Source of the DNA: Micromonospora sp. ATA32 | GTDB lineage: Bacteria; Actinomycetota; Actinomycetes; Mycobacteriales; Micromonosporaceae | Direction of reading: 5' to 3' | Length of the DNA stretch: 33,227 bases | Assembly: GCA_016802835.1 (NCBI GenBank) | Contig: JAEVHO010000011.1 | Coordinates: forward strand, 1-33,227 | Part shown: piece after piece, positions 6,394 to 22,278 of the stretch | How the letters are laid out: each line of letters opens with the position of its first letter | Position numbering within the stretch: position 1 is the stretch's first letter | Notes under the pieces: generated by a model | The model's database searches: none | What the model was told of the DNA's origin: nothing | Seen by the model: only the letters and a program-made list of their open reading frames with translations | Program-made: the position numbers and the translations under genes

Positions 6394-7952
6394 TCAGCGG
6401 GGGCGGTTGTCGCCCTTGCCGAGCTTGTTGAAGTCGATCTTCGGCAGCTTGAAGCCCGGCGGCAGGCCCTGGCCTCCGCCGAGGTCGTTCGGGTCCATGC
6501 CCCGGCGGGAGCTGCGGCATGCCCCCCCGGGAAACCGCCCGGCAGCCCGGCGCCCGCACCGGTACGCGGCCGGCCGCCGCCCTTGGTGCCCTTGCGCTTG
6601 TTCTTCGGCGACTTGGTCGCCTTTCGCCGGCCGCCGCCGGGCAGGCCCATCATGCCGCCCATCTGCTTCATCATCTTCTGCGCGTCGGCGAAGCGGTTGA
6701 GCAGCTGGTTGACGTCCATGACGGTGACCCCGGAGCCGTTGGCGATCCGGGCCCGGCGGGAGCCGTTGATGATCTTCGGGGTGGTCCGCTCGCCCGGGGT
6801 CATGGAGCGGATGATCGCGGTGACCCGGTCGAAGTGGCTGTCGTCAAGCTCGGAGAGCTGGTCCTTCATCTGCCCCATGCCGGGCATCATGGCCAGCACG
6901 TTCGCGATCGGGCCCATCCGACGGACCGCGATGAGCTGGTCGAGGAAGTCCTCCAGGGTGAACTGCTCACCGCCCATCAGCTTGGCGGTCATCTTCTCCT
7001 TCTGATCGGTGTCGAAGGCCTGCTCGGCCTGCTCGATCAGAGTGAGGACGTCGCCCATGCCGAGGATCCGGCTGGCCATCCGGTCGGGGTGGAAGACGTC
7101 GAAGTCCTCCAGCTTCTCGCCGGTGGAGGCGAAGAGGATCGGCTGCCCGGTGACCTCCCGTACGGAGAGCGCGGCGCCACCGCGGGCGTCGCCGTCGAGC
7201 TTCGACAGCACCACGCCGGTGATGCCGACGCCGTCGCGGAACGCCTCGGCGGTCCGCACCGCGTCCTGACCGACCATCGCGTCGACGACGAAGATGACCT
7301 CGTCCGGGTCGACGGCGTCGCGGATGTCGGCGGCCTGCTGCATCATCTCGGCGTCGATACCGAGTCGGCCGGCGGTGTCGACGATGACGATGTCCCGGGC
7401 GGCCCGCTTGGCGTGCTCGATCGAGGCCCGGGCGACCTGCACCGGGTCGCCGACGCCATTGCCGGGCTCCGGGGCGTACACCTCGACGCCGGCGCGGCCA
7501 CCGAGCACCTGGAGCTGCCCGACGGCGTTGGGGCGCTGCAGGTCGGCGGCGACCAGCAGCGGTTGGTGGCCCTGGGCCTTGAGCCAGCGGGCCAGCTTGC
7601 CGGCGAGGGTGGTCTTACCGGAACCCTGGAGGCCGGCGAGCATGATCACGGTCGGCGGCTGCTTGGCGAACTGGAGCCGCCGCCCCTCGCCGCCGAGGAC
7701 GTTGACCAGCTCCTCGTTGACGATCTTGATGATCATCTGCGCGGGGTTGAGCGCCTGGGAGACCTCGGCCCCCCGCGCACGTTTCTTGAGGTTCGCGATG
7801 AAGCCCTTGACCACCGGCAGGGCGACGTCGGCCTCCAGCAGCGCCATCCGGATCTCGCGCGCGGTGGCGTCGATGTCGGCGTCGGTGAGCCGGCCCTTGC
7901 CGCGGAGCTTGGTGAAGATCCCGGACAGGCGGTCACTCAAGGTGTCAAACAC
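6394..7952 (-). CDS. ffh: Signal recognition particle protein Ffh (SRP54)
   Basis: This is the GTPase that binds signal sequences with the SRP RNA and delivers ribosomes to the membrane. From GTG 7952 the protein starts MFDTLSDRLSGIF. It shows the N domain, then the G domain with G1 GLQGSGKT (about 107-114), VDTAGR and SKLDGDARGG. The Met-rich M domain includes MKDQLSELDD and MTPGERTTPKII, and a basic Gly-rich tail follows. The tail reads GAGLPGGFPGG and then loses frame: a run of seven G near 6512-6518 and a run of four G near 6530 each contain one G too many. Correcting both restores MPQLPPGMDPNDLGG, PPGFKLPKIDFNKL and GDNRPR, with TGA at 6394-6396 (518 residues). Uncorrected, the frame runs on to 6183. 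Because the gene is essential, sequence error is the simplest explanation, though the tail itself may tolerate change. Confidence 0.93.
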
Positions 7953-8098: not shown

Positions 8099-8211
8099 TC
8101 AACGGCCTCCGCCGACCAGGACCTCACGGATCGTCCGCAGAAAATCTTGAACTCGAGCCACAGCTGTGGCAGTTCGTCGAGCGAGGTGCGGCGCAGGAAT
8201 CGCCCGACCGG
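8099..8211 (-). pseudogene. Remnant of the C-terminus of a WcaJ-type sugar transferase
   Basis: The minus strand reads PVGRFLRRTSLDELPQLW, then jumps directly to LEFKIF and, after one missing base, RTIREVLVGGGR and TGA at 8099-8101. The intact transferase at 25213-26694 has PVGRFLRRSSLDELPQLW and DVKIVLRTIREVVVGGGR in the same positions, separated by about 75 residues that are absent here. The nucleotide match is also clear (the CTCCGCCGACCA start, GCGGCGCAGGAA). The internal deletion ends in short matching CTGTGG/CTCTGG words, consistent with slippage between micro-repeats. It is the left half of a wcaJ whose right half is at 19693-19816. Confidence 0.8.
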
Positions 8212-8240
8212 TATATGCCGCAGGATCGATGTCCGCGCAG

Positions 8241-8388
8241 CTAGTCGTCCGTGGGCGATTCGACACCGGCGGCTCGACAGATCCGCCGCACCGTCTCCCG
8301 GTTGTAACCAGTCACCTTGACGATCGTCGTCTGTCGCACGCCATCACGGGCGGCGCGGACGATGGCCTCCGCCAGCCGGCCCCGAGCC
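8241..8388 (-). pseudogene. C-terminal fragment of a small helix-turn-helix protein fused to the rmlC remnant
   Basis: The minus strand encodes GRLAEAIVRAARDGVRQTTI, then VKVTGYNRETVRRICRAAG and a TAG stop at 8241-8243. This is the C-terminal HTH seen in many small actinobacterial hypothetical proteins. Its own N-terminus is missing. The fragment begins exactly where the rmlC coding sequence breaks off (about 8382-8388), so it marks a recombination joint. In the frame of this fragment an ATG at 8456 precedes it, but those codons are rmlC sequence read out of frame. Confidence 0.55.
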
Positions 8389-8490
8389 GGTCGAAGCGGT
8401 ACCACTCCATGAACAGCCCGCGTGGGTCGCCGTGTTGCTGTGGGGTGATCTCCCAAGCTCCCCGTCGATGCTCAGCGGGCGGATCTTCAT
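8382..8490 (-). pseudogene. rmlC: rmlC remnant (dTDP-4-dehydrorhamnose 3,5-epimerase, first ~36 codons)
   Basis: ATG 8490 overlaps the rmlA stop codon in an ATGA. Translation begins [10 protein letters not shown], then shifts frame (GGGGAGCTTGG, one base missing or two added) to AWEITPQQHGDPRGLFMEWY and RFDRLG. This is the N-terminus of the RmlC cupin epimerase, including the conserved HGDPRG-F segment. The remaining ~165 residues, with the active-site His and Tyr, are gone. They are replaced by an unrelated HTH fragment. The gene cannot make an epimerase, so dTDP-rhamnose synthesis needs another rmlC elsewhere in the genome, if it occurs. Confidence 0.8.
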
Positions 8491-9376
8491 CGGCGCACGT
8501 TCCAGCCGTGCTGCTGCTCGGCGAGCAGGCCGAGCAGGTAGGTGCCGTATCCGCTTTTGGTCAGCGGCTCAGCCAACGTACGCAGTTGCTCGTCGTCGAT
8601 CAGGCCGGCCCGCCATACCACCTCTTCGATGCACCCGATCTTCATGCCTTGGCGTTCCTCGATGACCCGAACGAACTCGGCGGCCTGCATCATCGAGGTG
8701 AAGGTGCCGGTGTCCAGCCAGGCGGTGCCCCGGTCCAGCACCGCCACGGAAAGCTCGCCCCACTCGCGGTAAATCTCGTTGACCGCGGTGATCTCCAACT
8801 CCCCCCGGGCACTGGGGGTTAGCTTGCGGGCGATATCGACCACCCGGTTGTCGTAGAAGTACAGCCCGGGCACCGCGTACCGGGACTTGGGGCGGGCGGG
8901 CTTCTCCTCGATCGACAGCACCCGACCGGCCGCGTCGAAGTCGACCACGCCATACGCCTGCGGGTCGGCCACTGGGTACGCGAAAACCCGGCCACCGACA
9001 GGGTCGCCGTTGGCGGCGAGCTGCCGGCCGAGGCCGACGCCGTAGAAGATGTTGTCGCCGAGGATCAGTGCCACCGAATCGGCGCCGATAAAGTCCGCAC
9101 CCAGCAAGAACGCCTGCGCGATGCCCTCTGGGCGGCCTGCGTGATGTACTCCAACCGCAGGCCCCACTGGCTGCCATCACCAAGCAGCCGCTGGAACTGG
9201 GCCTGGTCCTCCGGCGTGGTGATCACCAGGATCTCCCGCACGCCCGCCATAACGAGGGTGGAGAGCGGGTAGTAGATCATTGGCTTGTCGAAGACCGGCA
9301 TCAGCTGCTTGGAGACCGCATGCGTGATCGGCCAGAGCCGGGAACCGGTGCCACCAGCAAGAAGGATTCCATGCAC
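8487..9376 (-). pseudogene. rmlA: Glucose-1-phosphate thymidylyltransferase RmlA, one frameshift
   Basis: RmlA makes dTDP-glucose from glucose-1-phosphate and dTTP. The GTG at 9376 opens [18 protein letters not shown] with the nucleotide-binding G-G-x-G-T-R signature, then [18 protein letters not shown]. After LEYITQA the frame breaks near 9131-9136 (GCCGCCC; one C missing). It resumes as [57 protein letters not shown] and a C-terminal helix ending HGWNVRR. Restoring one base gives 296 residues, the normal size. It overlaps rmlC' by ATGA and is divergent from rmlB. If the indel is real, the enzyme is cut to about 100 residues and dead; a sequence error is quite possible. Confidence 0.85.
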
Positions 9377-9382
9377 CCGGGG

Positions 9383-9388
9383 AGACTA
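9383..9388 (-). promoter_or_regulatory. -10 box of a probable leaderless rmlA promoter
   Basis: On the minus strand TAGTCT lies 6 bases before the GTG start of rmlA at 9376, with no ribosome site. This is the geometry of a leaderless transcript. Confidence 0.4.
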
Positions 9389-9447
9389 CCTGCACCGACG
9401 CGAGCCCGAGACCGCGGTCGTCTCTTCGGCTGTCCTGGCGCTTCGCG

Positions 9448-9453
9448 TACACT
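9448..9453 (+). promoter_or_regulatory. -10 box of a probable leaderless rmlB promoter
   Basis: TACACT lies 9 bases before the GTG of rmlB at 9463, with no Shine-Dalgarno sequence between. TTCGGC at 9425-9430 is a possible -35 with a 17-base spacer. It is back to back with the rmlA promoter in an 86-base gap. Confidence 0.4.
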
Positions 9454-9462
9454 CCTCGACCT

Positions 9463-10476
9463 GTGAGGATTCTCGTTACCGGCGGAGCCGGATTCATCGG
9501 GTCCGAGTACGTGCGCATGCTGTTGAAGGCGCCGGACAGCACCAGTCCGGGGGACCCGCAGCTCGAGCCGACCGCGATCACGGTGCTCGACAAGCTGACC
9601 TACTCCGGAAACCTGCAGAACCTCGCACCCGTGCGTGACGATCCACGGCTGCGGTTCATGCAGGGTGACATCTGCGACGCCGCCCTCGTCGATGAGGTGG
9701 TCCCCGGTCACGACGCGATCGTGCATTTCGCCGCCGAGTCTCACGTGGATCGCTCCATCGCCGGCGCGGCCCCGTTCGTCACCACGAACGTGCTCGGCAC
9801 CCAGACGCTGCTGGACGCTGCGCTGCGGCACGGAACGCACCGGTTCGTGCACGTCTCCACCGACGAGGTGTACGGGTCCATCGCCGAAGGCTCCTGGACA
9901 GAGGACTGGCCGCTGTCGCCGAACTCGCCGTACTCGGCCTCCAAGGCCGGCTCGGACCTGCTCGCACTGGCCTACCACCGCACCCACGGCATGGACGTCG
10001 TGGTCACCCGATGCTCGAACAACTACGGGCCCTACCAGTTCCCCGAGAAAGTCATCCCGCTGTTCGTCACCAACCTGCTCGACGGCGGCACCGTGCCGCT
10101 CTACGGCGACGGCGGCAACATCCGGGACTGGCTGCACGTGCACGACCACTGCCGGGGCATCGCGATGGTCCAGGAGAAAGGCCGCGCCGGCGAGGTCTAC
10201 AACATCGGCGGCGGCACCGAGCTGACCAACAAGGAGCTCACCGGCCGGCTGCTCGAGGCCTGCGACGCCGGGTGGGACAGGGTCGTGCCGGTCGCCGACC
10301 GCAAGGGCCACGACCGCCGCTACTCACTCGACATCAGCAAGATCAGCAGTGAGCTGGGGTACGCGCCGAGCATCGACCTGGAGCAGGGCCTCGCCGAGAC
10401 GGTGCAGTGGTACCGGGACAACCGGGCTTTGTGGGAGCCGCTGAAAGCACGTATCGCGCCGGCCGTCGCCGGATGA
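9463..10476 (+). CDS. rmlB: dTDP-glucose 4,6-dehydratase RmlB
   Basis: This is the second step of dTDP-rhamnose synthesis, an extended SDR enzyme using NAD. The 337-residue protein begins MRILVTGGAGFIGSEY with the Rossmann TGGAGFIG (6-13). It has FAAESHVDRS, the catalytic TDE in STDEVYG (132-138), the YxxxK pair Tyr157/Lys161 in YSASKAGSD, and NNYGPYQFPEK for substrate binding. Length and all key residues are normal, so this is the only rml gene here that looks fully intact. GTG 9463 is the start because TACACT is 9 bases upstream. The stop overlaps an ATG of the damaged rmlD (ATGATG). Confidence 0.95.
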   Translation: MRILVTGGAGFIGSEYVRMLLKAPDSTSPGDPQLEPTAITVLDKLTYSGNLQNLAPVRDDPRLRFMQGDICDAALVDEVVPGHDAIVHFAAESHVDRSIAGAAPFVTTNVLGTQTLLDAALRHGTHRFVHVSTDEVYGSIAEGSWTEDWPLSPNSPYSASKAGSDLLALAYHRTHGMDVVVTRCSNNYGPYQFPEKVIPLFVTNLLDGGTVPLYGDGGNIRDWLHVHDHCRGIAMVQEKGRAGEVYNIGGGTELTNKELTGRLLEACDAGWDRVVPVADRKGHDRRYSLDISKISSELGYAPSIDLEQGLAETVQWYRDNRALWEPLKARIAPAVAG

Positions 10477-10914
10477 TGCTGAGCCGGGACCTGCTGACCG
10501 TTCTGCACCCCCGAAGCGACCTGTCGGTGACGACCACGACACGCGCCGAACTCGGCATCACTGACCTGGACGCGGTGCGAGCCGCGGTCGCCGGGCACGA
10601 CGTCGTGATCAACACCGCCGCGTGGACCGACGTGGACGGGGCCGAGGCTCAGGAGGAGGCCGCCACAACCGTCAACGGGAACGCCGTCGGCCACCTGGCC
10701 CGAGCATGCGCCGCGGCCGGAGCGCGGATGATCCACATATCCACCGACTACGTCTTCCCCGGCAACGCCACCGAACCGTACCCGGCGGACGCCGCCACAT
10801 CCCCCGTCAACGCGTACGGGCGCAGCAAACTCGCCGGGGAACTCGCCGTGGCCGAGCTTCTCCCCCACACCGGTTACGTCGTGCGCACCGCCTGGCTCTA
10901 CGGTGAACACGAAC
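10473..10914 (+). pseudogene. rmlD: rmlD remnant (dTDP-4-dehydrorhamnose reductase), missing both ends
   Basis: From ATG 10473 the frame reads MMLSRDLLTVLHPRSDL, ITDLDAVRAAVAGHDVVINT, AAWTDVDGAEA, HISTDYVFPG, SPVNAYGRSKLAGE and VVRTAWLYGEH. This is RmlD with its TDYVF and YxxxK catalytic signatures. It lacks the first ~10 residues that carry the NADPH-binding GxxGxxG: the gene starts directly at the residues after that loop, at the rmlB stop codon. It also stops matching the family after LYGEH at about 10914, where an IS630-type fragment on the other strand begins. About half of the protein is therefore absent and it should be inactive. Confidence 0.85.
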
Positions 10915-11064
10915 GGCATTCGACGCGCCGCCCGCGCAGACCAGGACGATCCGCGCCCGCTCCACCTGTCTCGCTGACACCGATCCGCCAGCCCACCGCG
11001 ACAACTCGGCACGCTCCTCACCGGACAGAACGATCTCCCCAGCACGCGGACCAGAAGGCGACAT
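10915..11064 (-). pseudogene. IS630-family transposase fragment (first ~50 residues)
   Basis: ATG 11064 opens MSPSGPRAGEIVLSGEERAE, then LSRWAGGSVSARQVERARIV and LVCAGGASNA. This is the N-terminal helical domain typical of IS630-type transposases (ERARIVL...G.SN). The fragment ends at about 10915 where rmlD sequence starts, so the catalytic DDE domain is missing. It has joined to and truncated rmlD. A possible element end lies upstream of the ATG near 11101-11112 (CAGGACACTAG, next to a TA), but no matching opposite end remains. Confidence 0.7.
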
Positions 11065-11278
11065 GAAAACAGTCTACCTATTTAAGCTCGATATTTCAGG
11101 CGCAGGACACTAGGAGCCCCCGCCGCTTACTTCTTCGGTGTCGGCCACCGGCGTCAAATAGGACTACCGAGTGCCCGCGACGGAGACCGAGGAACCGCTC
11201 GAGGCGCTTCTGGATCCGTTGACGGGAGAGGCGCCGACGACGTACGGGCCATAAACATCGACATTGCGGCCAGCAGCA
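11065..11278. other. Unassigned stretch between the IS630 fragment and the GT operon end
   Basis: This holds the presumed upstream end of the IS630-type element and then about 165 bases. On the plus strand a reading frame gives DYRVPATETEEPLEALLDPL and GEAPTTYGP before a stop at 11251-11253. It looks like the tail of a coding sequence but I do not recognise it. No terminator was seen after the GT operon. Confidence 0.3.
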
Positions 11279-12112
11279 TCACGTTGCGGTGGGGATGCGG
11301 GTCGGCCCCACTTGTGATCCGATCAGAGCTGCCGCCCGGCGGTGCCGTCGGCCAGCCGGTGGCAGGCCCAGCAGGAATTCGGGGAACATCCGGTAAAAGG
11401 TCATGGCGCTCCTGACTTCCAAGGTGTGCGCCCTAGACCATCGAAACGAGTTGGTAGCGCGGGCCCAATGGTGCTTCCACTGGACGTCGCCGAGCAGTGC
11501 GACGGGGTGCCTCTGGCGCCAGGCGCGCAGGCCGAGCTCGTGGTCTTCGTAATAAAGAAAGAACCGCTCACTCCACGCGCCGAGTTCGATGAAGTCGTTT
11601 CTCCGCGCCGCAACCGCCGCGCCCATCACCCATGCAGTCCATATGGCCTCGCCAGGTTGAGCTGTCCGGCGATACGAGGCGTGTAGCCGCGACAGGGGCC
11701 AAAACTTCCGGTTTCCGAGCTTAGCGGTGGCGTACGGGAAGCCACGGCCGTTTGGCTGCAGTGCGCCCGTTGGAGACAGCAGCTGGGGGGCGACTAGCCC
11801 ACCGTGCACGTCCAGATGCGCCTGTAGCGCATCGAGGCCATCGTGTGCTACCTCGAGGTCCGGGTTGGCGAACAAGATGTACTCACTCGTCGAGTAGCGT
11901 AGTCCCACGTTATTCGCCCTAGAAAATCCGACGTTCGCCGGAAGGCGTACGACACGGGCGCCCAGCTCCTCCGCGACGTTCGGCGATGCATCGGTCGAGC
12001 AGTTGTCGACAACAATCCAGTCGTACGGCTTGGCCGAGTCGCTCCAGCACTGGCGCAACGTATTAGCAGAGTTGTACGTAACGGTCACGACACTCCACCG
12101 GCGTTCACTCAT
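11279..12112 (-). CDS. Glycosyltransferase family 2
   Basis: This 277-residue cytoplasmic GT-A enzyme starts at ATG 12112, overlapping the stop of the gene before it (ATGA). MSERRWSVVTVTYNSA opens the fold. VVDNCSTDASPNV binds the nucleotide-sugar, LFANPDLEV carries the DxD-like metal site, and FFLYYEDHELGLRAW holds the ED-containing catalytic segment. It resembles rhamnosyltransferase-like GT2 proteins of surface-polysaccharide clusters. The donor and linkage cannot be read from sequence. It is the last gene of the minus-strand operon. A longer reading frame to 12319 exists but lies inside the upstream gene. Confidence 0.85.
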   Translation of the reverse strand: MSERRWSVVTVTYNSANTLRQCWSDSAKPYDWIVVDNCSTDASPNVAEELGARVVRLPANVGFSRANNVGLRYSTSEYILFANPDLEVAHDGLDALQAHLDVHGGLVAPQLLSPTGALQPNGRGFPYATAKLGNRKFWPLSRLHASYRRTAQPGEAIWTAWVMGAAVAARRNDFIELGAWSERFFLYYEDHELGLRAWRQRHPVALLGDVQWKHHWARATNSFRWSRAHTLEVRSAMTFYRMFPEFLLGLPPAGRRHRRAAALIGSQVGPTRIPTAT

Positions 12113-13050
12113 AGTGGTCTCCGAACTCGCAGGTAGTCGATGAGGGATAAAATTCCAAAGCGTTTGCCCCGCCATTCTCGACGCGCCATCGGCCCTTCGA
12201 GCAGGCCGCGGCCAACGCCGCGGAGAAACGGACGTAACAGACCCTGACGTGCCCGCCGGATCGCTAAAAGGAAATGCGCAGCTGCAATGAACGTAGCCGA
12301 TACGAGCAGTAGCGGCCAAGAGAGCGTCCGGGCCGCCACAAGGATCCGGTTCCTGCCTAGCAGGAAGGCGCGAAAATCAAGAAGGCCGGTTTCGCTGTCG
12401 ACACTATGGCCTACCTTGTGGGGCAGTGCTAGGGCGAGGGTTCGTGTACGGATCCCGGATGCGTAGAGCCGGTAGGCCAAGTCCGCGTCCTCGCCCCACG
12501 CAAACAGATGGTCGTAGAATCCACCGAACTGGCGGAAGAGCCCGGTTGGAAAGACTGCCGCCCCTCCTGAGGGACCCAGCGGGCCGCGCGTTGCTTCGAC
12601 GGGCTGGTCGACAAAGAGACCGATCGGGCTTAGGTCAATGCCAACAAACTGGCGACCGTGCATGAAAAGGCCGACCGCGATCGGAACGTCAGGGGCATCG
12701 ATGATGGCGGCGTGGATTCTGACAAGAGAGTCCTCATTGAGCCACACATCCGGGTTCAAAAAAAGGACGTGACTAGTCGACGCCGCCGCAACAGCCATAT
12801 TGCAACTTGTGGCAAAACCAGGATTGGACGAATCTGGGATGTAGACGTAACGGTCCGCGTCGAGGCAACTTTCGATGAACTTTTCACAGCCGTCCCCTGG
12901 CCTGTTGTCGGCGAAGATGAATTTCACCGGCAGGTTATTGGCGCTGTGCACCCAGGTGGGCAGCGTCTCTGCGAGGATTTCGCTCGACCGGTATAGCACG
13001 GTGATGACGGTAAGGCCCGACACCGGCTGGCTTTTGGTTTCGTCATTCAC
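12109..13050 (-). CDS. Glycosyltransferase family 2, with C-terminal hydrophobic segment
   Basis: This is 313 residues. Family features are LTVITVLYRSSEIL, FADNRPGDG, NPGFATSCNMAV, VLFLNPDVWL (metal site), SGGAAVFPTGLF and AWGEDADLAYRLY (catalytic ED). A hydrophobic helix WPLLLVSATFIAAAHFLLA near residue 245 suggests membrane association, as in several GT2 enzymes acting on lipid-linked intermediates. It overlaps the upstream polymerase gene by 8 bases and the downstream GT2 by 4, so translation is probably coupled. Donor sugar unknown. The 11-13 kb region has somewhat lower GC than the flanks, compatible with acquisition from another lineage. Confidence 0.85.
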   Translation of the reverse strand: MNDETKSQPVSGLTVITVLYRSSEILAETLPTWVHSANNLPVKFIFADNRPGDGCEKFIESCLDADRYVYIPDSSNPGFATSCNMAVAAASTSHVLFLNPDVWLNEDSLVRIHAAIIDAPDVPIAVGLFMHGRQFVGIDLSPIGLFVDQPVEATRGPLGPSGGAAVFPTGLFRQFGGFYDHLFAWGEDADLAYRLYASGIRTRTLALALPHKVGHSVDSETGLLDFRAFLLGRNRILVAARTLSWPLLLVSATFIAAAHFLLAIRRARQGLLRPFLRGVGRGLLEGPMARREWRGKRFGILSLIDYLRVRRPL

Positions 13051-14392
13051 CTTTTGAGCCTCTCCCCAATCTGTGCAATACCCAGAGGCCGGGAATCAGA
13101 CTCAGCCACGTGGGATAGATGAACGGGTATAGCTCGTAGATACCGAAAGCGGCGAAATAGACGATAAGGCCGCGCGCTAGGTGCTGGGCTGGGCCCAACG
13201 TGAACTCAAGCCGACGTTCAGCAAGCCCGACACACAGGCCCAATATCACGAGAAAGATTGCAGCTCCGACCGGACCATAGTCGAGCAGGGGTATGGCCAC
13301 AAAGGTTGCTGTGTTCATGTAGTAGGGCCAACTGAGCTGCGATGTTATGCCATAGAGGTCGACGTCGCCGAACACCGGCTGAACAAGTGACCCCAGGAAT
13401 GTCAATGAATAGGCGCCATGCGCCCAGGCCAGGCTCTCACGTTGCGCCCAAAGTCTACCGAACGTCTCTCCAGAGGAGCTGAGCGACAGGTCCAAAGAAC
13501 CGGCGCTGGCAGTGAGGGCACTTCCGCCATACCGGGCGCGAAATTCGGTCTCAAATGCACCGGTACCCGCGAGCGTGCGTTGTCCCCCCAGAAACACGAT
13601 GGTGCCGATCACGGCGATGCCGACAAGGGTCACCACAGAACTCTTGGCGAACGACCTCGACGTGCGCCGTTGCGGGCGCCGGACCGACAAGGAGGCGATG
13701 AGCCCGGGCACGACGCCGACGAGTACCGAGTTCCTACTGCCGCCGAGCGCCGCACCAAGAATAAAGATGAAGGTGAAAGCGTAGTAGAGGGCCCGTCCCC
13801 GTCCGCCGAGCGTCAGGGCACGCAGCAACGAAATGGATACGCCTAGCGTCCACGCCTCAGACAGTAGGCCGACGAGGATGTTGGACTGCTCCCGCTGTGC
13901 TTGCCGCGCTACATCCGGATTCTCGGCAAAGAGCGCAGGAACCGAACCTCGGAACCGGATTACTGTTGCCAGCACGGCGACGGCTAGCAGTACTAGTAGA
14001 TACATCCTCAGTCGCTGATCTGAGGGCCAGCGCAATTCGGGTCGGGCTAGGGCAGAGGGAGCACCCGCCGCCCTTGCGAGTTGTCGGCCAAGTGCCCAAG
14101 CACCAAGGAAGGCGGCGGCGTAACCGGCTAGGACGGGAACTGCCGCCCTACCGGCCGACGAGTCGTAAGGGCCAGGAAAGACCAGCATGGCGATTAAGGC
14201 CAATGCCCAGACGGCTGCGCAGGCGGCCAGCCATCTCATACTTGCGTGCCAAGCGACCAAGGCCGCGACGGCTAAGCCGAGCGAGAGGCCGAGCGGCGCG
14301 TCCGAAGTGACGCTCCAACAAACGAGGATCAGGCATGCGCCACCGGAAATGAGCGTTGCGGTAGCCCAAAGTCGCTGCTCATTTCGTCTCAT
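13043..14392 (-). CDS. Wzy-like polysaccharide polymerase (O-antigen polymerase family)
   Basis: A 449-residue integral membrane protein with roughly 11-12 hydrophobic segments and a long central extracytoplasmic stretch (about residues 270-340, containing FETEFRARYGGSAL). It has the GGSRNSVLVG segment often seen in oligosaccharide repeat-unit polymerases. Start at ATG 14392 (MRRNEQRLWATATLI), overlapping the GT4 gene by 14 bases; an upstream ATG at 14536 lies deep in the GT4 gene and is not favoured. Its position between GT genes and the Wzx/Wzc-type genes supports the polymerase role. Wzy proteins are poorly conserved, so the call rests on topology and context. Confidence 0.75.
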   Translation of the reverse strand: MRRNEQRLWATATLISGGACLILVCWSVTSDAPLGLSLGLAVAALVAWHASMRWLAACAAVWALALIAMLVFPGPYDSSAGRAAVPVLAGYAAAFLGAWALGRQLARAAGAPSALARPELRWPSDQRLRMYLLVLLAVAVLATVIRFRGSVPALFAENPDVARQAQREQSNILVGLLSEAWTLGVSISLLRALTLGGRGRALYYAFTFIFILGAALGGSRNSVLVGVVPGLIASLSVRRPQRRTSRSFAKSSVVTLVGIAVIGTIVFLGGQRTLAGTGAFETEFRARYGGSALTASAGSLDLSLSSSGETFGRLWAQRESLAWAHGAYSLTFLGSLVQPVFGDVDLYGITSQLSWPYYMNTATFVAIPLLDYGPVGAAIFLVILGLCVGLAERRLEFTLGPAQHLARGLIVYFAAFGIYELYPFIYPTWLSLIPGLWVLHRLGRGSKGE

Positions 14393-15473
14393 AGCCGACT
14401 GACTGGTATAGTTCGCGCCAGCTCTGTACGCATCGAGCGAAGGAGAACTCCTCCGCGTATTCGCGGGCAACCCTGCGCCGCTGTTCGAGGGAAACCGGGC
14501 TCGAAGTCGCTCTCTCAATGGCCGCAGCCATTGCACCCGGAGTTAGCTCTGCCTGGTATGCGAGGGAGCCGTCACCTCGCCGCGTGACCTCTGGCAGGCC
14601 GCCGACGCCGGAATGCACGACGGGCACGCCCAGTGACATGGCCTCCAACGCGCTTCGACCAAACGCCTCTACCCGCGACGGCACGAGAAGGCAATCGACC
14701 TCCTGCAGGAAGGCCGCCGAGTCGACACGCCCGAGCAACCGCACATTCGGAAGGTTCGATACCGGCGTTGATCCGCTACCCGCGATCAAGAACTCGGCGT
14801 CGGGCAGTGCCGATGCGATCTCGGATAGGAGGTCAGCGCCTTTCTCCTTTTCGATCCGGCCTAGATAGCCCACGCGGACGGGGCTAGACGGAGACAAGCT
14901 GCGTCTGTCGTCGACTCTGGGCCATTTGGCGGGAAGCGGATTCGTGATGATGTGGACGTTCTCGACGCGCCCCCGCATTCGCAACTCCTCGGCTTCAAAC
15001 CCAGAAACCGCGACAGTCGCATGCGGCCGGAGCCGGCGAAGGACCAGGTCCGCCGTGATGTTGGCCTGCACTGCAGCCTTCTGCCGCAGCGACTCGGCCG
15101 CCTCCCGGTACTGCCACAGGCTGTTGTGCAGGGCGACCACCAGCGGCGTCCGGCGGCCCGCGACGCCGAGCCCCGCCCGGACGTGCATCGCGGCGGATAG
15201 CAGGTGTGCGCTGACTACGTCCGGACGCAATTCGTCGACGAGCCGCCGGATGTCGCGCGCATAGCTGAGGTCGATTCGCCGGTCCGCGCCGAGTGCGATC
15301 CACCGCACCCCCGACTCGCGAAGCGACGCCGCGACCTCGTCGTCCGGCGTGGCCGCGACCACGTCGACGCCTTGCTGCGCCAATGCCGGAAGCATTTCGA
15401 TGAGGAACCGTTCGGCGCCCCCGAGTTGCCGGCGCCCCGACCCGCCGGTGGTGCAGACGAACAGGACCCTCAT
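14379..15473 (-). CDS. Glycosyltransferase family 4
   Basis: A 364-residue GT-B enzyme. Start ATG 15473 overlaps the previous stop codon (ATGA) and reads MRVLFVCTTGGSGRRQLGG, then GAERFLIEMLPAL of the acceptor half. The C-terminal donor half shows VRVGYLGRIEKEKGADLL, LIAGSGS and the retaining-GT motif EAFGRSALEAMSLGVPVV (E-x7-E). It acts in the cytoplasm on lipid-linked glycan using a nucleotide sugar; which sugar cannot be said. It is fully embedded in the operon. Confidence 0.88.
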   Translation of the reverse strand: MRVLFVCTTGGSGRRQLGGAERFLIEMLPALAQQGVDVVAATPDDEVAASLRESGVRWIALGADRRIDLSYARDIRRLVDELRPDVVSAHLLSAAMHVRAGLGVAGRRTPLVVALHNSLWQYREAAESLRQKAAVQANITADLVLRRLRPHATVAVSGFEAEELRMRGRVENVHIITNPLPAKWPRVDDRRSLSPSSPVRVGYLGRIEKEKGADLLSEIASALPDAEFLIAGSGSTPVSNLPNVRLLGRVDSAAFLQEVDCLLVPSRVEAFGRSALEAMSLGVPVVHSGVGGLPEVTRRGDGSLAYQAELTPGAMAAAIERATSSPVSLEQRRRVAREYAEEFSFARCVQSWRELYQSVGYETK

Positions 15474-16321
15474 CGGGCACTCATTCCTTCGAGGGCACCG
15501 CGCGCTACCGCCCGTCGGGTGACGCCGCCACCGACCGCAGCCCTCAGAAGCACCCCAAGGACATACGCCGAGCAGGCGATGTTTCCGCGCCAGCCGGCTA
15601 GTTCGCGGCTGGCGCGGATGAACTCGCGGGTTTGCCGGCGGGAAATTTCCTCCGCCGGCCATCGGCGCTTGGCGCTCGCGTCGTCCTCGTGCATTACCAC
15701 GGCTTCTGGCACGTAGGCGAGGCTCAGGCCTAGCTTGCGGACCGCCCAGCAGAGCCGCAGGTCCTCGGAGTAGAAGAACGAAGACTCGTCCACGCCGCCG
15801 ATCTTGTCCAGCGTCTCGCGACGGATCGCGACGAATGGCCCGGAGAGCCAGTCGCCCTGCTCCGGCGTCGACACGATCCTTAGCCGGGGAAACACCACGC
15901 TCAGACCGGTGGCGTGCACAATTCCGGTGCGCACCGTCAGAAACCGCCCAGCGGCGGTCTGGTCCGCCCCGGCCGCGTCCAAGACCCTCGGGAACGCCGC
16001 GCCCACCGCCGGATCATCGAGCCGCCCTAGCAACCGCTCGATGGCCTGCGGCTGCACGACGATGTCATTGTTCGACAGAATAACGCGCGACCGGGTGGCG
16101 TGCCGCACGCCGAGGTTCATGCCCTTGGCAAAGCCCAGGTTGACCTCGGACCGGACGTACCTTGCCCCTGTCTCGTGGCACATAGCGCGCAGTGCAGCAC
16201 TGATTTCCGCGGCGCTGCCATTGTCCACCACGATGACTTCCGCGCTGGCGGGCAGCGACCGCACGCAGCCGTTGGTTCGCTCGAAGTCTTCCCAGGCCAA
16301 TACGATGATTGAGATGTCCAC
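15470..16321 (-). CDS. Glycosyltransferase family 2 (rhamnosyltransferase-like)
   Basis: A 283-residue GT2. GTG 16321 follows the wzx TAG with no gap and begins MDISIIVLAWEDFERT. VIVVDNGSAAEIS and VNLGFAKGMNLGVRHA match the N-terminal nucleotide-binding half. ILSNNDIVVQP carries the metal-binding acidic residue and FFYSEDLRLCWAV the catalytic ED. The pattern is that of WbbL/rhamnosyl-type GT2 proteins. Nearby rml genes make dTDP-rhamnose a plausible donor, but that is inference. Confidence 0.85.
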   Translation of the reverse strand: MDISIIVLAWEDFERTNGCVRSLPASAEVIVVDNGSAAEISAALRAMCHETGARYVRSEVNLGFAKGMNLGVRHATRSRVILSNNDIVVQPQAIERLLGRLDDPAVGAAFPRVLDAAGADQTAAGRFLTVRTGIVHATGLSVVFPRLRIVSTPEQGDWLSGPFVAIRRETLDKIGGVDESSFFYSEDLRLCWAVRKLGLSLAYVPEAVVMHEDDASAKRRWPAEEISRRQTREFIRASRELAGWRGNIACSAYVLGVLLRAAVGGGVTRRAVARGALEGMSAR

Positions 16322-17550
16322 CTATGCCGTCCGATTGAGGAGAAGTTGTGGAGTGCGCTGCAGGCTCTGCTTGGTTCGGAACGCGTACACCCCGTACGCG
16401 ACCGACGCTGCTGCGGCCGAGCCGAACGCGCCAGCCAAAGGGATGAGGAGGAAGTACAGCGTGACCGACACCAACATGGTTATAAGGGCCACGGTCGTGG
16501 TTGCCTGCTCCCCGCTCCGCTTCAGCAGAGCGGCGCTCCAGATCTTGCCGGCCGACAGGGCGAGGGTCCCCGGCAGCAGGAGCAGGCCGAATATCCAGGC
16601 CTGGTTGTACTCGGGCGCCAGTACACCCAGTCCGGCCAGCCCGACAACGGCTAGGCTGGCCACCGGGAGTGCCGCCTTGACGACCGCGCCGCTCTCGTCC
16701 CGCAGCGTCTCGGGATCCCGCTCGGCGAGGATGCGCTGCGATTTCACCACGGCGCCAGCCTGGGCGAACTCTAACGCCGCCACTGCCAGGGCGTAGACGC
16801 CGAGCGTCCCGGCGCCGGCGAACCGGGCCACCAGGATTTGGCTCAGGCGGTACGTCAGCATCTGCGCGCAAACCCCGATGTGCAGCCGTCCCGCGGCGAC
16901 GAGGTCGGCGAGGTACTCCGAACGGCTGGCCGTCGCCGCTGGGATGGGCCGGGCCCGCCAAGCCCAGATCAACACGACGACGCTCAGGATCACGGCGGAT
17001 GCCACCTGGACGCCGAGCCACACCTCGCTCCAGAGGCTACCGTCCAACTGTCTGCGCAAGTAAAGGATGGCGTATCCGCGACCAGGACAGCGCCACCGGC
17101 CGCCCGCATCGAGTAGACGAGCCAGAACCTCTTGAGCCGCAGGGCGAGCGAGGAAAAGGCGTTGAAGACAGTCAGCCCGCATGCAGCCCCGACGCCGACG
17201 GCGTAGCTGCCGATGCCGGCCGCCGCGGTGAGTATCGCGGCCGCCGCAGTCGACAGGCCCAGGGCAGCGACGAGGATGCCGAGGGTCCAGAAGCGGCCTC
17301 GGGAAACGACCCAACCGGCTGGCCGGGACAGCAGGAAGGTGTCGATGGAGAGGCCGCCGAGAGCCGCGCCGAGCGTGGCGCTCACCATGTTGGCGGCGAG
17401 TTCGCCGCGCTCCGCCGCCGGCAGCGTGACCGAAACCAGCGCCGCAAACCCGGTCAGGCCGAGGGCAGCAATGTAAAGGCGTTCGGGCGAGGCGACCCGT
17501 CGGTCGCGAACTAGCACGGGAAGGTGCCTTGAGTTGTAACGCTTCGCCAC
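16322..17550 (-). pseudogene. Wzx-like polysaccharide flippase, one frameshift
   Basis: The N-terminal frame from GTG 17550 reads VAKRYNSRHLPVLVRDRR, then ERLYIAALGLTGFAALVSV, LAANMVSATLGAALGGLSID and further hydrophobic helices to MRAAGGAVLV. Near 17078-17084 the frame breaks (GTCGCGGATAC, one base missing). It continues as GYAILYLRRQLDGSLWSEVW, a string of hydrophobic helices and the end TPQLLLNRTA. With one base restored it is about 409 residues with about 12 membrane helices, the size of MATE/PST-family flippases that turn lipid-linked repeat units to the outside. Start GTG 17550 is 4 bases after the kinase stop. If the indel is real the cluster lacks its exporter, unless another flippase serves. 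Confidence 0.75.
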
Positions 17551-17554
17551 GACT

Positions 17555-18943
17555 TCATACCTTTGCGCGGGCACGGCGTGACGTAGGCGAAGCGTGGTAC
17601 TTCGAGTACGTCGTCTCCTTCGGCCGCTTAACGCGGTTCGCGACGACCCCGAGCACGGTTGCATTGACCGAGCGGAGGGTCTCGATGGCACTTGCGAGCT
17701 GGTCGGTCCGGGTTCGTCCGACGCGGGTGACCACCACGGCCCCATCCGTAGCTTGGGCAATAATGGCCGCATCAGTCACTGGAAGCAGCGGCGGCGAATC
17801 GAAGACAACAATCATCCCCGACGCCTGGAGGGATTCGATAATATTTTTCAACCGAGCAGATCCGAGTAGCTCGCTCGGGTTGGGTGGCTTCGGGCCAGCC
17901 GCGAGGATGTAAAGCGGCAGGTCTGGCCGCCAATGTTGTAGAGCGTTGTTGACCGGTACATCACCAAGCAATACGCTGGTCAACCCAAACGCGTTGGAAA
18001 GAGCGAAGGCATCAGCGACGCCGGGTACACGCAAGTCAGCGTCGATGAGTACGACGGGCTGACCGGATTGCGCCAGTGAGATGGCCAGGTTTGCCGCCGT
18101 CGTGGTCTTGCCCTCGTCTGGAAGAGACCCAGTCACGACAAAGCTGCGAAGCTGCCGGTCGACTGACAGGAAACGGATGCTCGTGCGCAGTTGCCGGAAC
18201 TCCTCAGCGCGCGCAGAGGGCAGTTCATCAATCATCAGCTTGCTGTTCAGCTTTGGCTCGTCAGCGATCGCACCAAGGACAGGCACTCCGGCGACCTCAG
18301 CGGCGACCTTCGTGCTCCGGATCGTTCGGTCAAAGGTATCCCGCAACAGGGCAGTGCCTGCACCGAGTGAGAAACCCATGAAAAGACCCAAGGCAACATT
18401 AAGGGTTCTTCGCGGCGACGCCGGCGTACTCGGCACGTCAGCCCATCGAGTAACTGTGAGCTTGACGGGTGACACGGTTGGCTTGCCAGCATTACCGGGC
18501 GGGCCCTCGATTGCATCGACAATCATGGGAAGCTGTCTAGCCACTTCATCGGCGATGGCGCGGGCGCGCTCCGGGGATGTGTCGGTCACTGTGATATCGA
18601 GAAGTACGGTGTTAAGCGGTGTTGCCGCAGTGATGTTTCTGCTTAGCGCGTCTGGCGTATATGGCAACTGCAGGCTATCCACTACAGCTTTAGTAACTAG
18701 CGTGCTATTTACAATATCCGCATAAGATCGGACGCGTTGCTGAGTAAATACTCCGCCCTGATTCAACTGCGCAAGGTCGTCTGCGCTGCTTGCGCGAATA
18801 GACACAAAGAGTTGGATATTCGCTTTGTAGGTCGGTGTCTGCGTCCAGGTATAGACGAGAGCCAGAAGTACCCCCGCCGCCGTAGCGACAAGTACAAGGA
18901 TCTTCCGTTCGCTAACTGCACGAAGATACTGCGTAAGCATCAT
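17555..18943 (-). CDS. Polysaccharide co-polymerase / BY-kinase (Wzz-Wzc or CpsC-CpsD fusion type)
   Basis: A 462-residue protein joining a chain-length-determinant domain to a bacterial tyrosine kinase. Membrane helix 1 is at about 14-33, helix 2 at about 183-203, with the external Wzz domain between. The cytoplasmic ATPase has Walker A GSLPDEGKTT (272-281), Walker A' VVLIDAD (297-303) and Walker B VVFDSPP (379-385). The C-terminus has only a few Tyr residues rather than a long Tyr cluster. It should control polymer length together with Wzy and be reversed by the phosphatase at 20166. It is the first gene of the operon; GGTGAGG lies about 10-15 bases before ATG 18943. A decayed copy of its ATPase is at 20739-20940. 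Confidence 0.92.
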   Translation of the reverse strand: MMLTQYLRAVSERKILVLVATAAGVLLALVYTWTQTPTYKANIQLFVSIRASSADDLAQLNQGGVFTQQRVRSYADIVNSTLVTKAVVDSLQLPYTPDALSRNITAATPLNTVLLDITVTDTSPERARAIADEVARQLPMIVDAIEGPPGNAGKPTVSPVKLTVTRWADVPSTPASPRRTLNVALGLFMGFSLGAGTALLRDTFDRTIRSTKVAAEVAGVPVLGAIADEPKLNSKLMIDELPSARAEEFRQLRTSIRFLSVDRQLRSFVVTGSLPDEGKTTTAANLAISLAQSGQPVVLIDADLRVPGVADAFALSNAFGLTSVLLGDVPVNNALQHWRPDLPLYILAAGPKPPNPSELLGSARLKNIIESLQASGMIVVFDSPPLLPVTDAAIIAQATDGAVVVTRVGRTRTDQLASAIETLRSVNATVLGVVANRVKRPKETTYSKYHASPTSRRARAKV

Positions 18944-19692
18944 CAGATGGACGCCTCACCGACCGGATAAGTGTGCCTGGCAAGGCGAGTGAGACTCTCG
19001 CCCGTTCCAGTTCTGCGCTTGCCGTAAGCACACCTTCCTCCGAGTATTCGCACTAGGCAGTTCTCCAGGCAATCATGTCGACCGGTTGAGGGTACCGAGC
19101 GGCTGGAACGATTCCAACGAGTGCAACGGGAAGGTACACAAGCACCTCTGGTCCTGTCCGATTGGGGTTCGGGCGTGGTCGATTCGACTAGCCTAGAGAG
19201 CACACGAAGATCGTGCATTGGCGAATCGCCGCTCCTAAGGCCGGCGCTACATTCCCGATACGGGCGGGGGGAGTGCACCCCGAATCCTCCAGTCCTAGCG
19301 GCTAACGCCCCACTCGTTCTGCCCTCAGCGCGTGAGTCAGCACACGACGATACCGCCGGTCGTCGGGCAGGGGCAGAGAGTCGCAAATTCGGAAAACCCT
19401 GTCAATAGTGGCGGAGGCCTCTCTTAAGAACTTTCAAATCCATCCAAAAAGGGCATAATGGCCCAGCTTGCTTGCTAATGTGTCGTGCTATATCCTTTTT
19501 GCGGGGTAACGGCAGGGCGAATCCGTGAGGCGAATAATGGCCGACCGGGCCTGCGATGACGGCCGACACGATGACCTTGGGTAGCCCGGCAGATGGGTGT
19601 CGACAGAAACTCGGTCAGCTCGGGGCGGCAGGCCTTGAGGAAGACTCCGAGTTGCCGGTTCGATGACCAGGTTTTCCGCTGTGCACGATCAA
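18944..19692. other. Long untranslated-looking leader region upstream of the polysaccharide operon
   Basis: About 750 bases with no convincing gene on either strand. It includes an AT-richer patch at 19405-19500 (AAAAAGGGCATAATGG and CTATATCCTTTTTG), unusual here. A promoter candidate for the operon is listed separately. A minus-strand frame of 147 codons (18943-19386) has no recognisable protein character. The right 190 bases before 19692 do not resemble the wcaJ repeat and are unassigned. Confidence 0.5.
19377..19405 (-). promoter_or_regulatory. Candidate promoter for the wzc-wzx-GT operon
   Basis: On the minus strand TTGACA (19400-19405) is followed after exactly 17 bases by GACTCT (19377-19382). 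It points toward the kinase gene and would give a leader of about 430 bases. The -35 is perfect; the -10 keeps only the A and final T of the consensus. Confidence 0.4.
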
Positions 19693-19816
19693 CCGGACGG
19701 CACCCAGAGTGCCGCCACCGTCACATGGGTCTGGGAACGGCGCCCCCGTTCCGCCAGTCGGCTGTCCTGGTTACGGCAGGCACGAACGCCAACGGGAGTT
19801 GCGACTTAGAGGTCAC
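19693..19816 (-). pseudogene. Remnant of the N-terminus of a second wcaJ
   Basis: From GTG 19816 the minus strand reads VTSKSQLPLAFVPAV, against VTSKSHLPSAFVPSV at the start of the intact WcaJ (GTG 26694). The preceding ribosome-site region CCGGAGACCGAAAA is also the same. The frame degenerates and meets a stop at 19721-19723, but nucleotide similarity (GGACGGCACCCAGAGT) persists to about 19693 and then ends abruptly. This is the right half of a broken wcaJ whose last codons are at 8099-8211. Confidence 0.75.
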
Positions 19817-20011
19817 TTTTCGGTCTCCGGGGGTGGTCGACGGTGTGGTGCCATCGGACGCGGAGTCTCGGCTTGCGGGTGCCGTGTCGGCACAGACCTT
19901 CGCGAGGCTCGAGAGGTAATCGTTCGCCCTGGTAGCGGCGCGAGCGCAACTCGTGACCGACGGTTCAGTGGGCGCGCGGGTCCCCACCCCTCCGTGGAAC
20001 GAGACAGATAC

Positions 20012-20039
20012 CTGACAGACTCACCGTGGCAGCTACTTT
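20012..20039 (+). promoter_or_regulatory. Candidate promoter for the phosphatase gene
   Basis: CTGACA (20012-20017), a 16-base spacer and TACTTT (20034-20039), within the conserved intergenic part of the repeat. The second copy has a perfect TTGACA at the equivalent place (26885-26890) but a poorer -10. Confidence 0.3.
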
Positions 20040-20165
20040 TAGCGATCACTCCACTACCGACGGAAGTGGGTCTGCGCCCGCCCACGAGGCGCGTCGACGG
20101 CCGTCTCACCGGCCGATGGGTATCCTTTCATCAGTTGACGGCGCAAATATGGGGGAAGATCTGCG

Positions 20166-20732
20166 GTGGGGGGCGTCCTGCACGTCTGCACGGGCAACCA
20201 GGCGCGGTCCCCTATTGCCGAACGGTTGATGGAGGCCAGCCTCTGGGACCGTTTCGGCGAGATAGCCGACTCCATTTTCGTGACGAGCGCCGGCACGCAG
20301 GGCCCGGCCGACCGACCGATACAGCCGCTGGCGGCGGCAGAGCTGAAACGCCGCGGCATCTCCTCAGACGGCTTCGTCTCCCAACTGCTCGACCTGAAGG
20401 CGGCGGAGCGCGCCCACCTCGTGCTCACCGCGACCCGGCAGCAACGGGACGAGATCGTCGCGCAATTGCCGTCCGCCCTGCGGCACACCTTCACCTTGCG
20501 GGAACTCGCCTGGCTGGTAGGCGGCCTACGACCCGATGAGGTGCCCGGCCGCTACCCGGTCGAGCGCCTTGCCAACCTGGCGCGAGTGACGAGGCGCCGG
20601 CGGGGCTACCTGCAACCGCTCGCTCCCGAGCAGTACGACGTAGCGGACCCCATGGGCGGCACGAGACAGGACTACCGCATCGCCGCTGCCCAGATCGAAG
20701 AGGCCACCGAGGCGATCCTAGGCGTCCTGTGA
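20166..20732 (+). CDS. Low-molecular-weight protein tyrosine phosphatase (Wzb/CpsB-like role)
   Basis: A 188-residue cytoplasmic phosphatase. The P-loop CTGNQARS gives catalytic Cys8 and Arg14 (C-x5-R-S) and YDVADPMGG the general acid Asp161. The segment SAGTQGP is also typical of LMW-PTPs. GTG 20166 is preceded by GGGGAAG, 7 bases away. In capsule systems such enzymes dephosphorylate the Wzc-like tyrosine kinase; the kinase gene lies 1.2 kb away on the other strand, which supports that partner. The sequence is longer than classic ~150-residue LMW-PTPs because of an insert between about 105 and 150. A decayed copy lies at 27018-27205. Confidence 0.9.
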   Translation: MGGVLHVCTGNQARSPIAERLMEASLWDRFGEIADSIFVTSAGTQGPADRPIQPLAAAELKRRGISSDGFVSQLLDLKAAERAHLVLTATRQQRDEIVAQLPSALRHTFTLRELAWLVGGLRPDEVPGRYPVERLANLARVTRRRRGYLQPLAPEQYDVADPMGGTRQDYRIAAAQIEEATEAILGVL

Positions 20733-20738
20733 GTCTAC

Positions 20739-20940
20739 AGCCGGACTCGGGTTAGGCGGCGTGGGACCGCCTGCAAGGACGTAGAGCGGTAGATCCGCCT
20801 CCCTTGCTGAGGTGCCCGATTCGCCTGCATCTCGCCGAGCAGCACACTCGTCAATCCACTCCCTTCGAAAGGGCGAAGACATCGGCGACCTCGGCCTTCG
20901 GAGATCGGCATCCGCCTCCGTCCCCGGCGATCTTGGTCAT
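20739..20940 (-). pseudogene. Remnant of a second Wzc-like kinase (ATPase segment)
   Basis: On the minus strand GLTSVLLGE matches GLTSVLLGD of the intact kinase (residues 320-328). Further on, in a shifted frame, GGPTPPNPS matches AGPKPPNPS (349-357). The plus-strand landmarks CTCGGGTT, AGAGCGGTAGATC and GGGCGAAGACATCGGCGAC line up with 17870-18020 in the same order and orientation. Several indels and stops make it non-functional. Similarity fades after about 20940. It lies tail-to-tail with the phosphatase. Confidence 0.7.
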
Positions 20941-21216: not shown

Positions 21217-22278
21217 ATGTCTTACGTGTCCACCACACCTGCGCCGGCCGCACCCAGAGATCATCGCGCCAGACGCTTCCGCTCGCTGCCAGGCTGGAAG
21301 AAGGCGCTCATAATCCTGCTCGCCCTAGTGCTGGTAGGCGGCATCTGCGGCGGCATCGGGGCGTTGGCGCTGGTCAACCGCTATGAGAGCAAGGCCCAGC
21401 ACGAGGACCTGCTCGGCCCGGCCGCCCAGCCCAAGGACGAGAAGCGCTGGAAGTCGGGGCCTCTTGACCTGTTGCTGCTTGGGTCCGACTCCCGGGAGGG
21501 TGAACCAGACGAGGGGAGACTCGCCGGTCAACGGTCGGACACGATCATGCTGGTGCACTTCAGCAAGAACCTTGATCACGCCACCATCGTCTCGATCCCG
21601 CGGGACAGCTACGTCTACGTGCCTGCCGCAGGGAGCTGGAACGGCGGCATGAACAAGCTCAACGCGGCATTCGCCTTCGGCGGTGCCCCGCACGCGGCGA
21701 AGACCATCACCCGCCTGACCGGCGTGAAGTTCGACGGCGCCCTGATCGCCAACTTCGCCAGCATCAACAAGATGGTCGACGCGGTCGACGGCGTGCGGGT
21801 CTGCATCCCCTACACCGTCAAGTCGACGTTCTCGGACAAGGTTTGGGAGAAGGGCTGTCACGAGTTCCACGGCGTGGAGGCCGAAGAGTTCATGCGCCAG
21901 CGCAAGGCCGTGCCCGGCGGCGACTTCGGGCGCATCCACGATCAGCAGCTGGTCGTCAAGGCCATCGCGGAGAAGGTGTCCGCCGATGGCATGCTGACGA
22001 ACCCGCTGGAGCTCGACAAGCTTCTGGTGACGGCCGCCGAGGCACTGACGATCGACAAGAGCCTCGATCTCAAGGAGTTGGCTCTGACTGCCAAGGGCAT
22101 CAAGCCCGCGAACATCAAGTTCGCCACCGTGCCGTACACGAGCGCCAGCCTGAAGACGCACGCCGGCTCGGCGGTCAAGCTCGATGACGCCAAGGCGAAG
22201 GAGATGTTCGCCGCCGTGCGCGACGACACCATCCAGGAGTGGCTGGCCGCCCACCCGCAGAAGGTGCCCGGTAGCTGA
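21217..22278 (+). CDS. LytR-CpsA-Psr (LCP) family glycopolymer ligase
   Basis: LCP proteins transfer lipid-linked glycopolymers onto peptidoglycan outside the membrane. This 353-residue protein has a basic cytoplasmic tail, a single helix at about 29-53 and an external LCP domain. Visible motifs are LLLLGSDSRE (85-94), QRSDTIMLVHF with the phosphate-binding Arg106 and Asp108, SIPRDSYVYVP (126-136), KLNAAFAFGG, the Arg-rich MRQRK and DFGRIHDQQ. All match the family. ATG 21217 follows GAGGGA. It is a natural last step for a polymer made by the wcaJ/wzx/wzy genes. No defect seen. Confidence 0.93.
   Translation: MSYVSTTPAPAAPRDHRARRFRSLPGWKKALIILLALVLVGGICGGIGALALVNRYESKAQHEDLLGPAAQPKDEKRWKSGPLDLLLLGSDSREGEPDEGRLAGQRSDTIMLVHFSKNLDHATIVSIPRDSYVYVPAAGSWNGGMNKLNAAFAFGGAPHAAKTITRLTGVKFDGALIANFASINKMVDAVDGVRVCIPYTVKSTFSDKVWEKGCHEFHGVEAEEFMRQRKAVPGGDFGRIHDQQLVVKAIAEKVSADGMLTNPLELDKLLVTAAEALTIDKSLDLKELALTAKGIKPANIKFATVPYTSASLKTHAGSAVKLDDAKAKEMFAAVRDDTIQEWLAAHPQKVPGS

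Follow-up and report, generated by a model that had tools for sequence, protein, structure and literature searches.

Two wcaJ Remnants Flank a Patchwork of Polysaccharide Genes Between ffh and a Phosphatase Gene in Micromonospora sp. ATA32

Introduction

How does a bacterium come to carry the start and the end of an initiating-transferase gene 11.5 kb apart, with a set of sugar genes in between? The question is raised by a stretch of 33,227 nucleotides (nt) of the soil bacterium Micromonospora sp. ATA32 (contig JAEVHO010000011.1, assembly GCA_016802835.1; hereafter the window), in which two remnants of wcaJ, here called scars, flank a block of rhamnose (rml) and glycosyltransferase (GT) genes, and an intact wcaJ (copy B) stands farther along. 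The genome is a draft of 891 contigs, and the assembly is 92% complete. The original prediction for this DNA was that one serotype-like cassette, a rhamnose and repeat-unit operon, had entered or replaced the middle of an older wcaJ, with the transferase gene as recombination hotspot and the intact wcaJ now serving in its place; a strain with a continuous gene between ffh and the phosphatase gene ptp was to be looked for.

Pathogens are well known to exchange their surface-polysaccharide loci. An initiating enzyme of this family transfers the first sugar phosphate to undecaprenyl phosphate, further transferases lengthen the unit, a flippase and a polymerase complete the polymer, and a Wzz/bacterial tyrosine kinase (BY-kinase) sets the length with its phosphatase. 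In Klebsiella pneumoniae, one study reports, capsule loci are replaced by recombination at conserved flanking genes, and where a single essential gene has become a pseudogene, it most often belongs to the first steps (wbaP or wcaJ, followed by the transferases) (PMC8259999).

Here the window was compared with 160 genomes of the genus. The two scars are present, the same slot holds a continuous wcaJ in M. thermarum HSS6-12 and a different remnant in M. sicca 4G51, the block between the scars is a patchwork, and copy B is intact. The locus has a history with more layers than the entry of one cassette into one gene would leave. As a whole it would be best explained by an island between ffh and glnD, a takeover by copy B, decay on the ffh side and a patchwork in the old slot, a reading to which we give a probability of about 60%.

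Two Remnants of wcaJ

The two predicted wcaJ pieces on the minus strand (8102–8211 and 19693–19816) were confirmed by protein and DNA searches, the left one also by Pfam. Both were recovered by tblastn with the intact WcaJ protein against the window, and again by a DNA search against a 1.8-kb stretch that holds the intact gene (left scar, E 6e-15 and 5e-16; right scar, E 2e-39). Codons are numbered here from the ATG of copy B at 26823; its likely true start is the GTG at 26694, which is codon 44.

The left scar (8102..8211) is the 3′ part of the gene and lies about 150 bp from ffh (6390..7949, minus strand; Pfam SRP54, 232 bits), the conserved left anchor of the locus. Its two tblastn pieces, at 8211–8158 (17/18 amino acids, E 3e-6) and 8152–8102 (13/17 amino acids, E 0.015), correspond to codons 428–445 joined to 520–536; the internal deletion fuses CTGTGG to CTCTGG and is followed by a single missing base. 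The scar is scored independently by Pfam Bac_transf (8158–8226, E 1.2e-5).

The right scar (19693..19816) is the 5′ part, 124 bp from its GTG start, and it is frameshifted. The tblastn match falls in two frames at 19944–19772 (25/30 and 20/27 amino acids, E 2e-13), partly upstream of the GTG. Counted from the GTG, the scar aligns with about the first 33 codons of copy B, then 28 bp (19711–19738) do not align to copy B, and an 18-nt exact match (19693–19710) forms its end. The scar adjoins the divergent ptp (20166..20732, plus strand), which encodes an intact low-molecular-weight protein tyrosine phosphatase (PF01451, 58.6 bits); CTGNQARS in this protein is presumably the CX5R motif. Homology to the copy B region continues upstream through the wcaJ/ptp intergenic region (19817..20165), which is of the distal-copy type, into ptp, up to 20309. 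Codons 77–427 are absent from the scar site.

Across the start codon and ribosome site of the right scar, 35 nt (19800–19834) match copy B exactly within surroundings of about 75% identity. The gene of the right scar may thus have stayed functional during a large part of the period after the two copies separated, but a 36-nt run within ptp is likewise identical.

The Intact Distal Copy

Copy B (25213..26694, minus strand) encodes an intact initiating sugar-phosphate transferase. It scores 421.8 bits with TIGR03025 (polyprenyl glycosylphosphotransferase), above the curated cut-off of 295.55, and 387.6 bits with the WcaJ equivalog TIGR03023 (undecaprenyl-phosphate glucose phosphotransferase), below the cut-off of 410.75. 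Because copy B falls short of this glucose-specific cut-off, wcaJ is used here as a loose name and no first sugar is assigned. A truncated ptp (27002..27165, plus strand) adjoins the gene, and the whole region (25116–27192) is 96% identical to copy B of M. sicca at the nucleotide level.

The intact wcaJ of the original prediction is thus present. It is the putative working initiator; besides copy B and the left scar, a Bac_transf search of the assembly gave two further genes, on contigs C87 (35% amino acid identity to copy B) and C31.

The ffh–glnD Site in Related Genomes

Among the 160 genomes, the closest wcaJ genes belong to M. sicca 4G51 (G116, 97% nt identity), the closest relative found, and to M. 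thermarum HSS6-12 (G151, 81%). Reading from ffh, M. thermarum carries an intact wcaJ, then ptp, wzz, a gene for a Wzy_C polymerase, a Polysacc_synt flippase gene and other genes as far as glnD. A continuous wcaJ between ffh and the phosphatase gene was therefore found where it had been suggested to look, and the scars of the window are tied to the same two neighbors, ffh and ptp.

M. sicca is without the block, yet its ffh-side wcaJ is broken by other deletions. This remnant retains codons 97–131 and 419–427, which are lost in the window, and is without codons 437–445 and 520–536, which the window has kept. Loss of the ffh-side wcaJ therefore does not need a cassette. In the same genome, ptp and an intact wzz follow the remnant, and just before glnD stand another wcaJ, this one intact, and a truncated ptp. 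The wzz-ptp-wcaJ order is also present in Planosporangium.

At E 1e-100, ffh was found in 160/160 genomes and glnD in 157/160. Spacing was tabulated for 140 genomes with both genes, on one contig in 129 and on different contigs in 11; the 20 genomes left out of this survey include that of the window. The median distance is 2.2 kb. It exceeds 10 kb in 2 of the 129, those of M. sicca and M. thermarum, and the island was seen in three genomes in all. The contig of the window stops short of glnD, and contig C9 of the same genome ends at a position that lies inside glnD in M. sicca. In two further genomes (G028:C151 and G056:C1) 8.7–9.2 kb separate ffh from glnD.

The Patchwork Between the Scars

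The part of the block next to the left scar is an rml segment truncated at both ends. Its rmlC is an N-terminal fragment (8363..8461, minus strand) of 33 residues out of about 200, with 82–85% amino acid identity by tblastn to the rmlC of two genomes, G015 and G026; the rmlC of G015 belongs to PF00908. Then come rmlA (8505..9376, minus strand) with a 1-nt frameshift at 9134, an intact rmlB (9463..10476, plus strand), and rmlD (10407..10910, plus strand), whose match stops at residue 178 of 311.

A glycosyltransferase core of five genes follows on the minus strand (11279..16321). It holds GT2 genes at 11279–12319, 12109–13050 and 15470–16321 and a GT4 gene at 14379–15662, all assigned by Pfam, and a gene for a polymerase-like membrane protein at 13043–14536 that gave no Pfam hit. 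The putative wzy label of the latter comes from where the gene lies, from the nine hydrophobic stretches of its product and from a TIGR04370 score under the cut-off (24.7 bits versus 40). On the same strand, the adjoining gene in the flippase position (16325..17502) encodes a membrane protein and has a 1-nt frameshift at 17077. It is called wzx tentatively, from this position and from the 6–7 hydrophobic stretches of its intact homologues, against nine in the Wzx of M. thermarum used as control; neither the gene nor its intact G015 homologue gave a Pfam hit. The last gene is an intact Wzz/BY-kinase gene for chain length and tyrosine autokinase (17555..18943, minus strand; Wzz 40.7 bits; TIGR01007 156.4 bits, cut-off 108.05), with 61% amino acid identity to the M. 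thermarum copy and 58% to that of M. sicca. Between its start and the right scar, about 750 bp are without a recognised gene; conceivably, the block might have taken over the wcaJ promoter. The remnant of a second Wzz/BY-kinase gene lies to the right of ptp (20730..20898, minus strand; three tblastn pieces with the M. thermarum wzz, 61–68% amino acid identity, E 5e-10), in the place where M. thermarum and M. sicca carry theirs.

The core and flippase-position genes (11314–17495) are colinear with other Micromonospora loci at 71–73% nt identity, and among the matches listed this part appears as a single match of about 6.2 kb in at least seven of the 160 genomes. The best affinities of the modules differ: the rml segment is 87% identical to G031, and the core 73% to G015. 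In G015, G026 and G031 the rml genes lie between wcaJ and the core, whereas in the window they lie on the opposite side of the core. Since rmlC and rmlD are truncated, two genes are frameshifted, the modules have different nearest relatives and the order is rearranged, the block is a patchwork and not one intact operon or cassette. What the original prediction took for a rhamnose operon is a truncated rml segment, and the genes between the scars should not be mistaken for an intact rhamnose cassette. Stepwise assembly would be the simplest reading of the block.

The position of the rml genes suggested a circular permutation of the canonical cassette through a circular intermediate. Because rmlC and rmlD are truncated and the rml segment and the core differ in their affinities, separate events are at least as likely, and this candidate was set aside.

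Single-copy transposition was weighed as well; no complete transposase was found in the block, whose ends were not searched for terminal repeats. The piece at 10807–11064, which we take to be an IS630-like N-terminal piece, gave no Pfam or NCBIfam hit. A helix-turn-helix-like piece lies between the left scar and the rmlC fragment (8241–8362), with weak matches to Pfam and to an IS630 model, below cut-off.

Edges of the Exchanged Segment

On the left, the ffh side of the window (6369–8099) is 94% identical to M. sicca at the nucleotide level. The last 0.65 kb at the ffh start are 93–98% identical, and the short region upstream of it is 82–89% identical and can be aligned to 8099. On the right, the edge lies within lytR (21217..22278, plus strand; LCP family), where identity is 0.71–0.90 up to about 22055 and 0.92–1.00 from 22104; the right flank is 92–100% identical. 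The segment that differs from M. sicca thus extends from 8.10 to about 22.1 kb and contains both scars, ptp and most of lytR.

A variable center between conserved flanks, as expected of a serotype-like exchange, is what the comparison with M. sicca gives. Breakpoints inside wcaJ on both sides were not found: only the left edge coincides with wcaJ, and the idea of wcaJ as recombination hotspot is weakened. When the M. sicca center was searched against the genome of the window, eight matches were obtained; the longest one outside the window was 252 bp, and no long copy on another contig was seen.

Comparison With Known Polysaccharide Loci

The window shares its flanks, the ffh-side wcaJ remnant, lytR and a distal copy B with truncated ptp with M. 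sicca 4G51. The center of M. sicca differs, with a GDP-mannose dehydratase, a second epimerase, a GT4 and a Wzy_C polymerase; its remnant has other deletions, and its wzz is intact beside ptp. The wcaJ-ptp-wzz island of M. thermarum has the same site, flanks and module as the window, with an intact wcaJ where the window has scars. It differs in its center and its polymerase and flippase genes, has one wcaJ, and no scars were seen in it; in the 21 kb around its wcaJ there is no rmlB match.

In the common Micromonospora locus (wcaJ-rmlDBAC-(unnamed gene)-core; G015, G026 and G031), the core and rml genes are homologous to those of the block and colinear per module, and in G026 and G031 lytR stands before wcaJ. 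Its wcaJ is distant (54–56% amino acid identity), and its rml genes lie between wcaJ and the core, whereas those of the window are truncated and on the other side.

Beyond the genus, the inactivation of an initiating transferase together with the replacement of a locus through its flanks is of a kind known in Klebsiella, by analogy with the capsule loci in the study cited above (PMC8259999). Unlike that locus, the one in the window lies between ffh and glnD in an actinomycete and holds two copies of the initiating gene, and its exchange shows in a comparison between species. Among the literature matches listed for wcaJ with Micromonospora and for this locus, no description of it was recognised. 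The locus is a well-preserved example of a known process, in which intact, half-decayed and overwritten states can be compared across three actinomycete genomes. It records how bacteria reshuffle surface-sugar genes.

Origin of the Locus

In the history that we favor, a small group of Micromonospora carries a Wzx/Wzy-type surface-polysaccharide island between ffh and glnD. The founding module was probably wcaJ-ptp-wzz; M. thermarum still has it unbroken, its wcaJ next to ffh. Another wcaJ-ptp pair (copy B) would later have stood at the distal end in the common ancestor of the window strain and M. sicca. As copy B could start each sugar chain, the ffh-side wcaJ would have been free to decay, and it broke differently in M. 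sicca and in the window strain. In the latter, the old slot from ffh to ptp now holds the 11.5-kb patchwork of broken rml genes, GT/polymerase core and Wzz/BY-kinase, with the wcaJ ends left as flanking scars. Copy B would have taken over before the break, and both scars would derive from wcaJ genes that stood in this slot. A spare initiating transferase, to judge from this site, may let the original decay while the locus is rebuilt. Several points weigh against this history. Only three genomes were seen to carry the island, and the order of events is undated. The 1-nt frameshifts at 9134 and 17077 may be assembly errors, because the rmlD of the other rml set in the same genome (contig C20; L211, G000:C20:11001-20000, 2713-3622) is also split over two frames, which suggests indel errors in the draft or a second broken rmlD. 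In its 5′ region the right scar belongs, by alignment, to the distal-copy (B) type and not to the ffh-side type of the relatives. From ptp to 19739 this region can be aligned with the distal copies of both species. The two ffh-side copies, of M. sicca and M. thermarum, align throughout with each other (61%) but match the right scar near ptp only. The slot may therefore have changed its occupant, before the block came in or together with it.

This last point leads to an alternative that we hold possible but rather unlikely, in which no single gene was split: the left scar would come from the resident ffh-side wcaJ, and the right scar, ptp and the Wzz remnant would have arrived on a copy-B-like segment reaching lytR. 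The edge within lytR fits such a segment, as does the identity of ptp at the nucleotide level, 73 and 75% to M. sicca and M. thermarum, against 93–98% to M. sicca at the ffh end. The ptp genes of M. sicca and M. thermarum, however, are just as divergent from each other (74% nt and 68% amino acid identity), so that ptp divergence alone says little; the window protein (71 and 73%) is nearer to each than they are to one another. In a DNA tree the left scar falls inside the ptp-linked wcaJ clade (98/96). In favor of the alternative, three of its amino acids are those of M. thermarum where copy B differs, but two of the three also occur in Planosporangium and may be ancestral. Its nucleotides favor copy B at seven sites and M. 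thermarum at four, and with a scar too short to place, the approximately unbiased (AU) test rejects neither grouping (p 0.357 with M. thermarum, 0.149 with copy B). Order, strand and neighbors of the scars fit one gene, as originally predicted, and the type of the right scar leans to two lineages; one split gene and two successive genes are both possible. A bolder version, tentative and in our view unlikely, is that two wcaJ lineages occupied the slot in succession and that the site would preserve, in layers, the traces of at least two exchanges of a polysaccharide locus, with the wcaJ-ptp intergenic region (promoter and start site) as a repeated landing point beside which new sugar operons would be placed and perhaps driven. 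The original model of one intact cassette, recombined into a single wcaJ and working today, is improbable. The cassette-type gene content, a scar on both sides and a copy B available to start chains speak for it, and the continuous M. thermarum gene with the same neighbors bears out an older wcaJ at the site. It is at odds, however, with the patchwork nature of the block, with the missing codons 77–427, which exclude a simple insertion, and with the lytR edge. Still less credible is a misassembly in which unrelated pieces were fused at one edge of the block or at both, although the fragmented draft, the 1-nt frameshifts and the frame change in the C20 rmlD could invite it. The scar and copy B repeats that might mislead an assembler are only 75–87% identical, the neighbors on both sides fit the relatives, and a search of the genome with the block gave, among the matches reported, only C20 (rml, 83%) besides the window; the M. 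sicca center, as noted, has no long copy on another contig.

Other Features of the Window

The regulator/kinase region seems to be duplicated or rearranged in the window strain, since both parts of a 230-bp direct repeat (24059–24288 and 32301–32529, 92% identity) match one M. sicca stretch at about 36.7–36.9 kb. Between the kinase gene and copy B, M. sicca carries about 1.7 kb of DNA that the window lacks at 25078–25116; the two genes there resemble, as we assume, an ABC transporter. Where M. sicca goes directly to glnD, the window has a GH16 match and a cellulose-binding (CBM_3) match in two overlapping frames (27585–29059), possibly one frameshifted glycosidase. Close to the contig end (30966–32141), pieces of an ISL3-type transposase lie in separate open reading frames.

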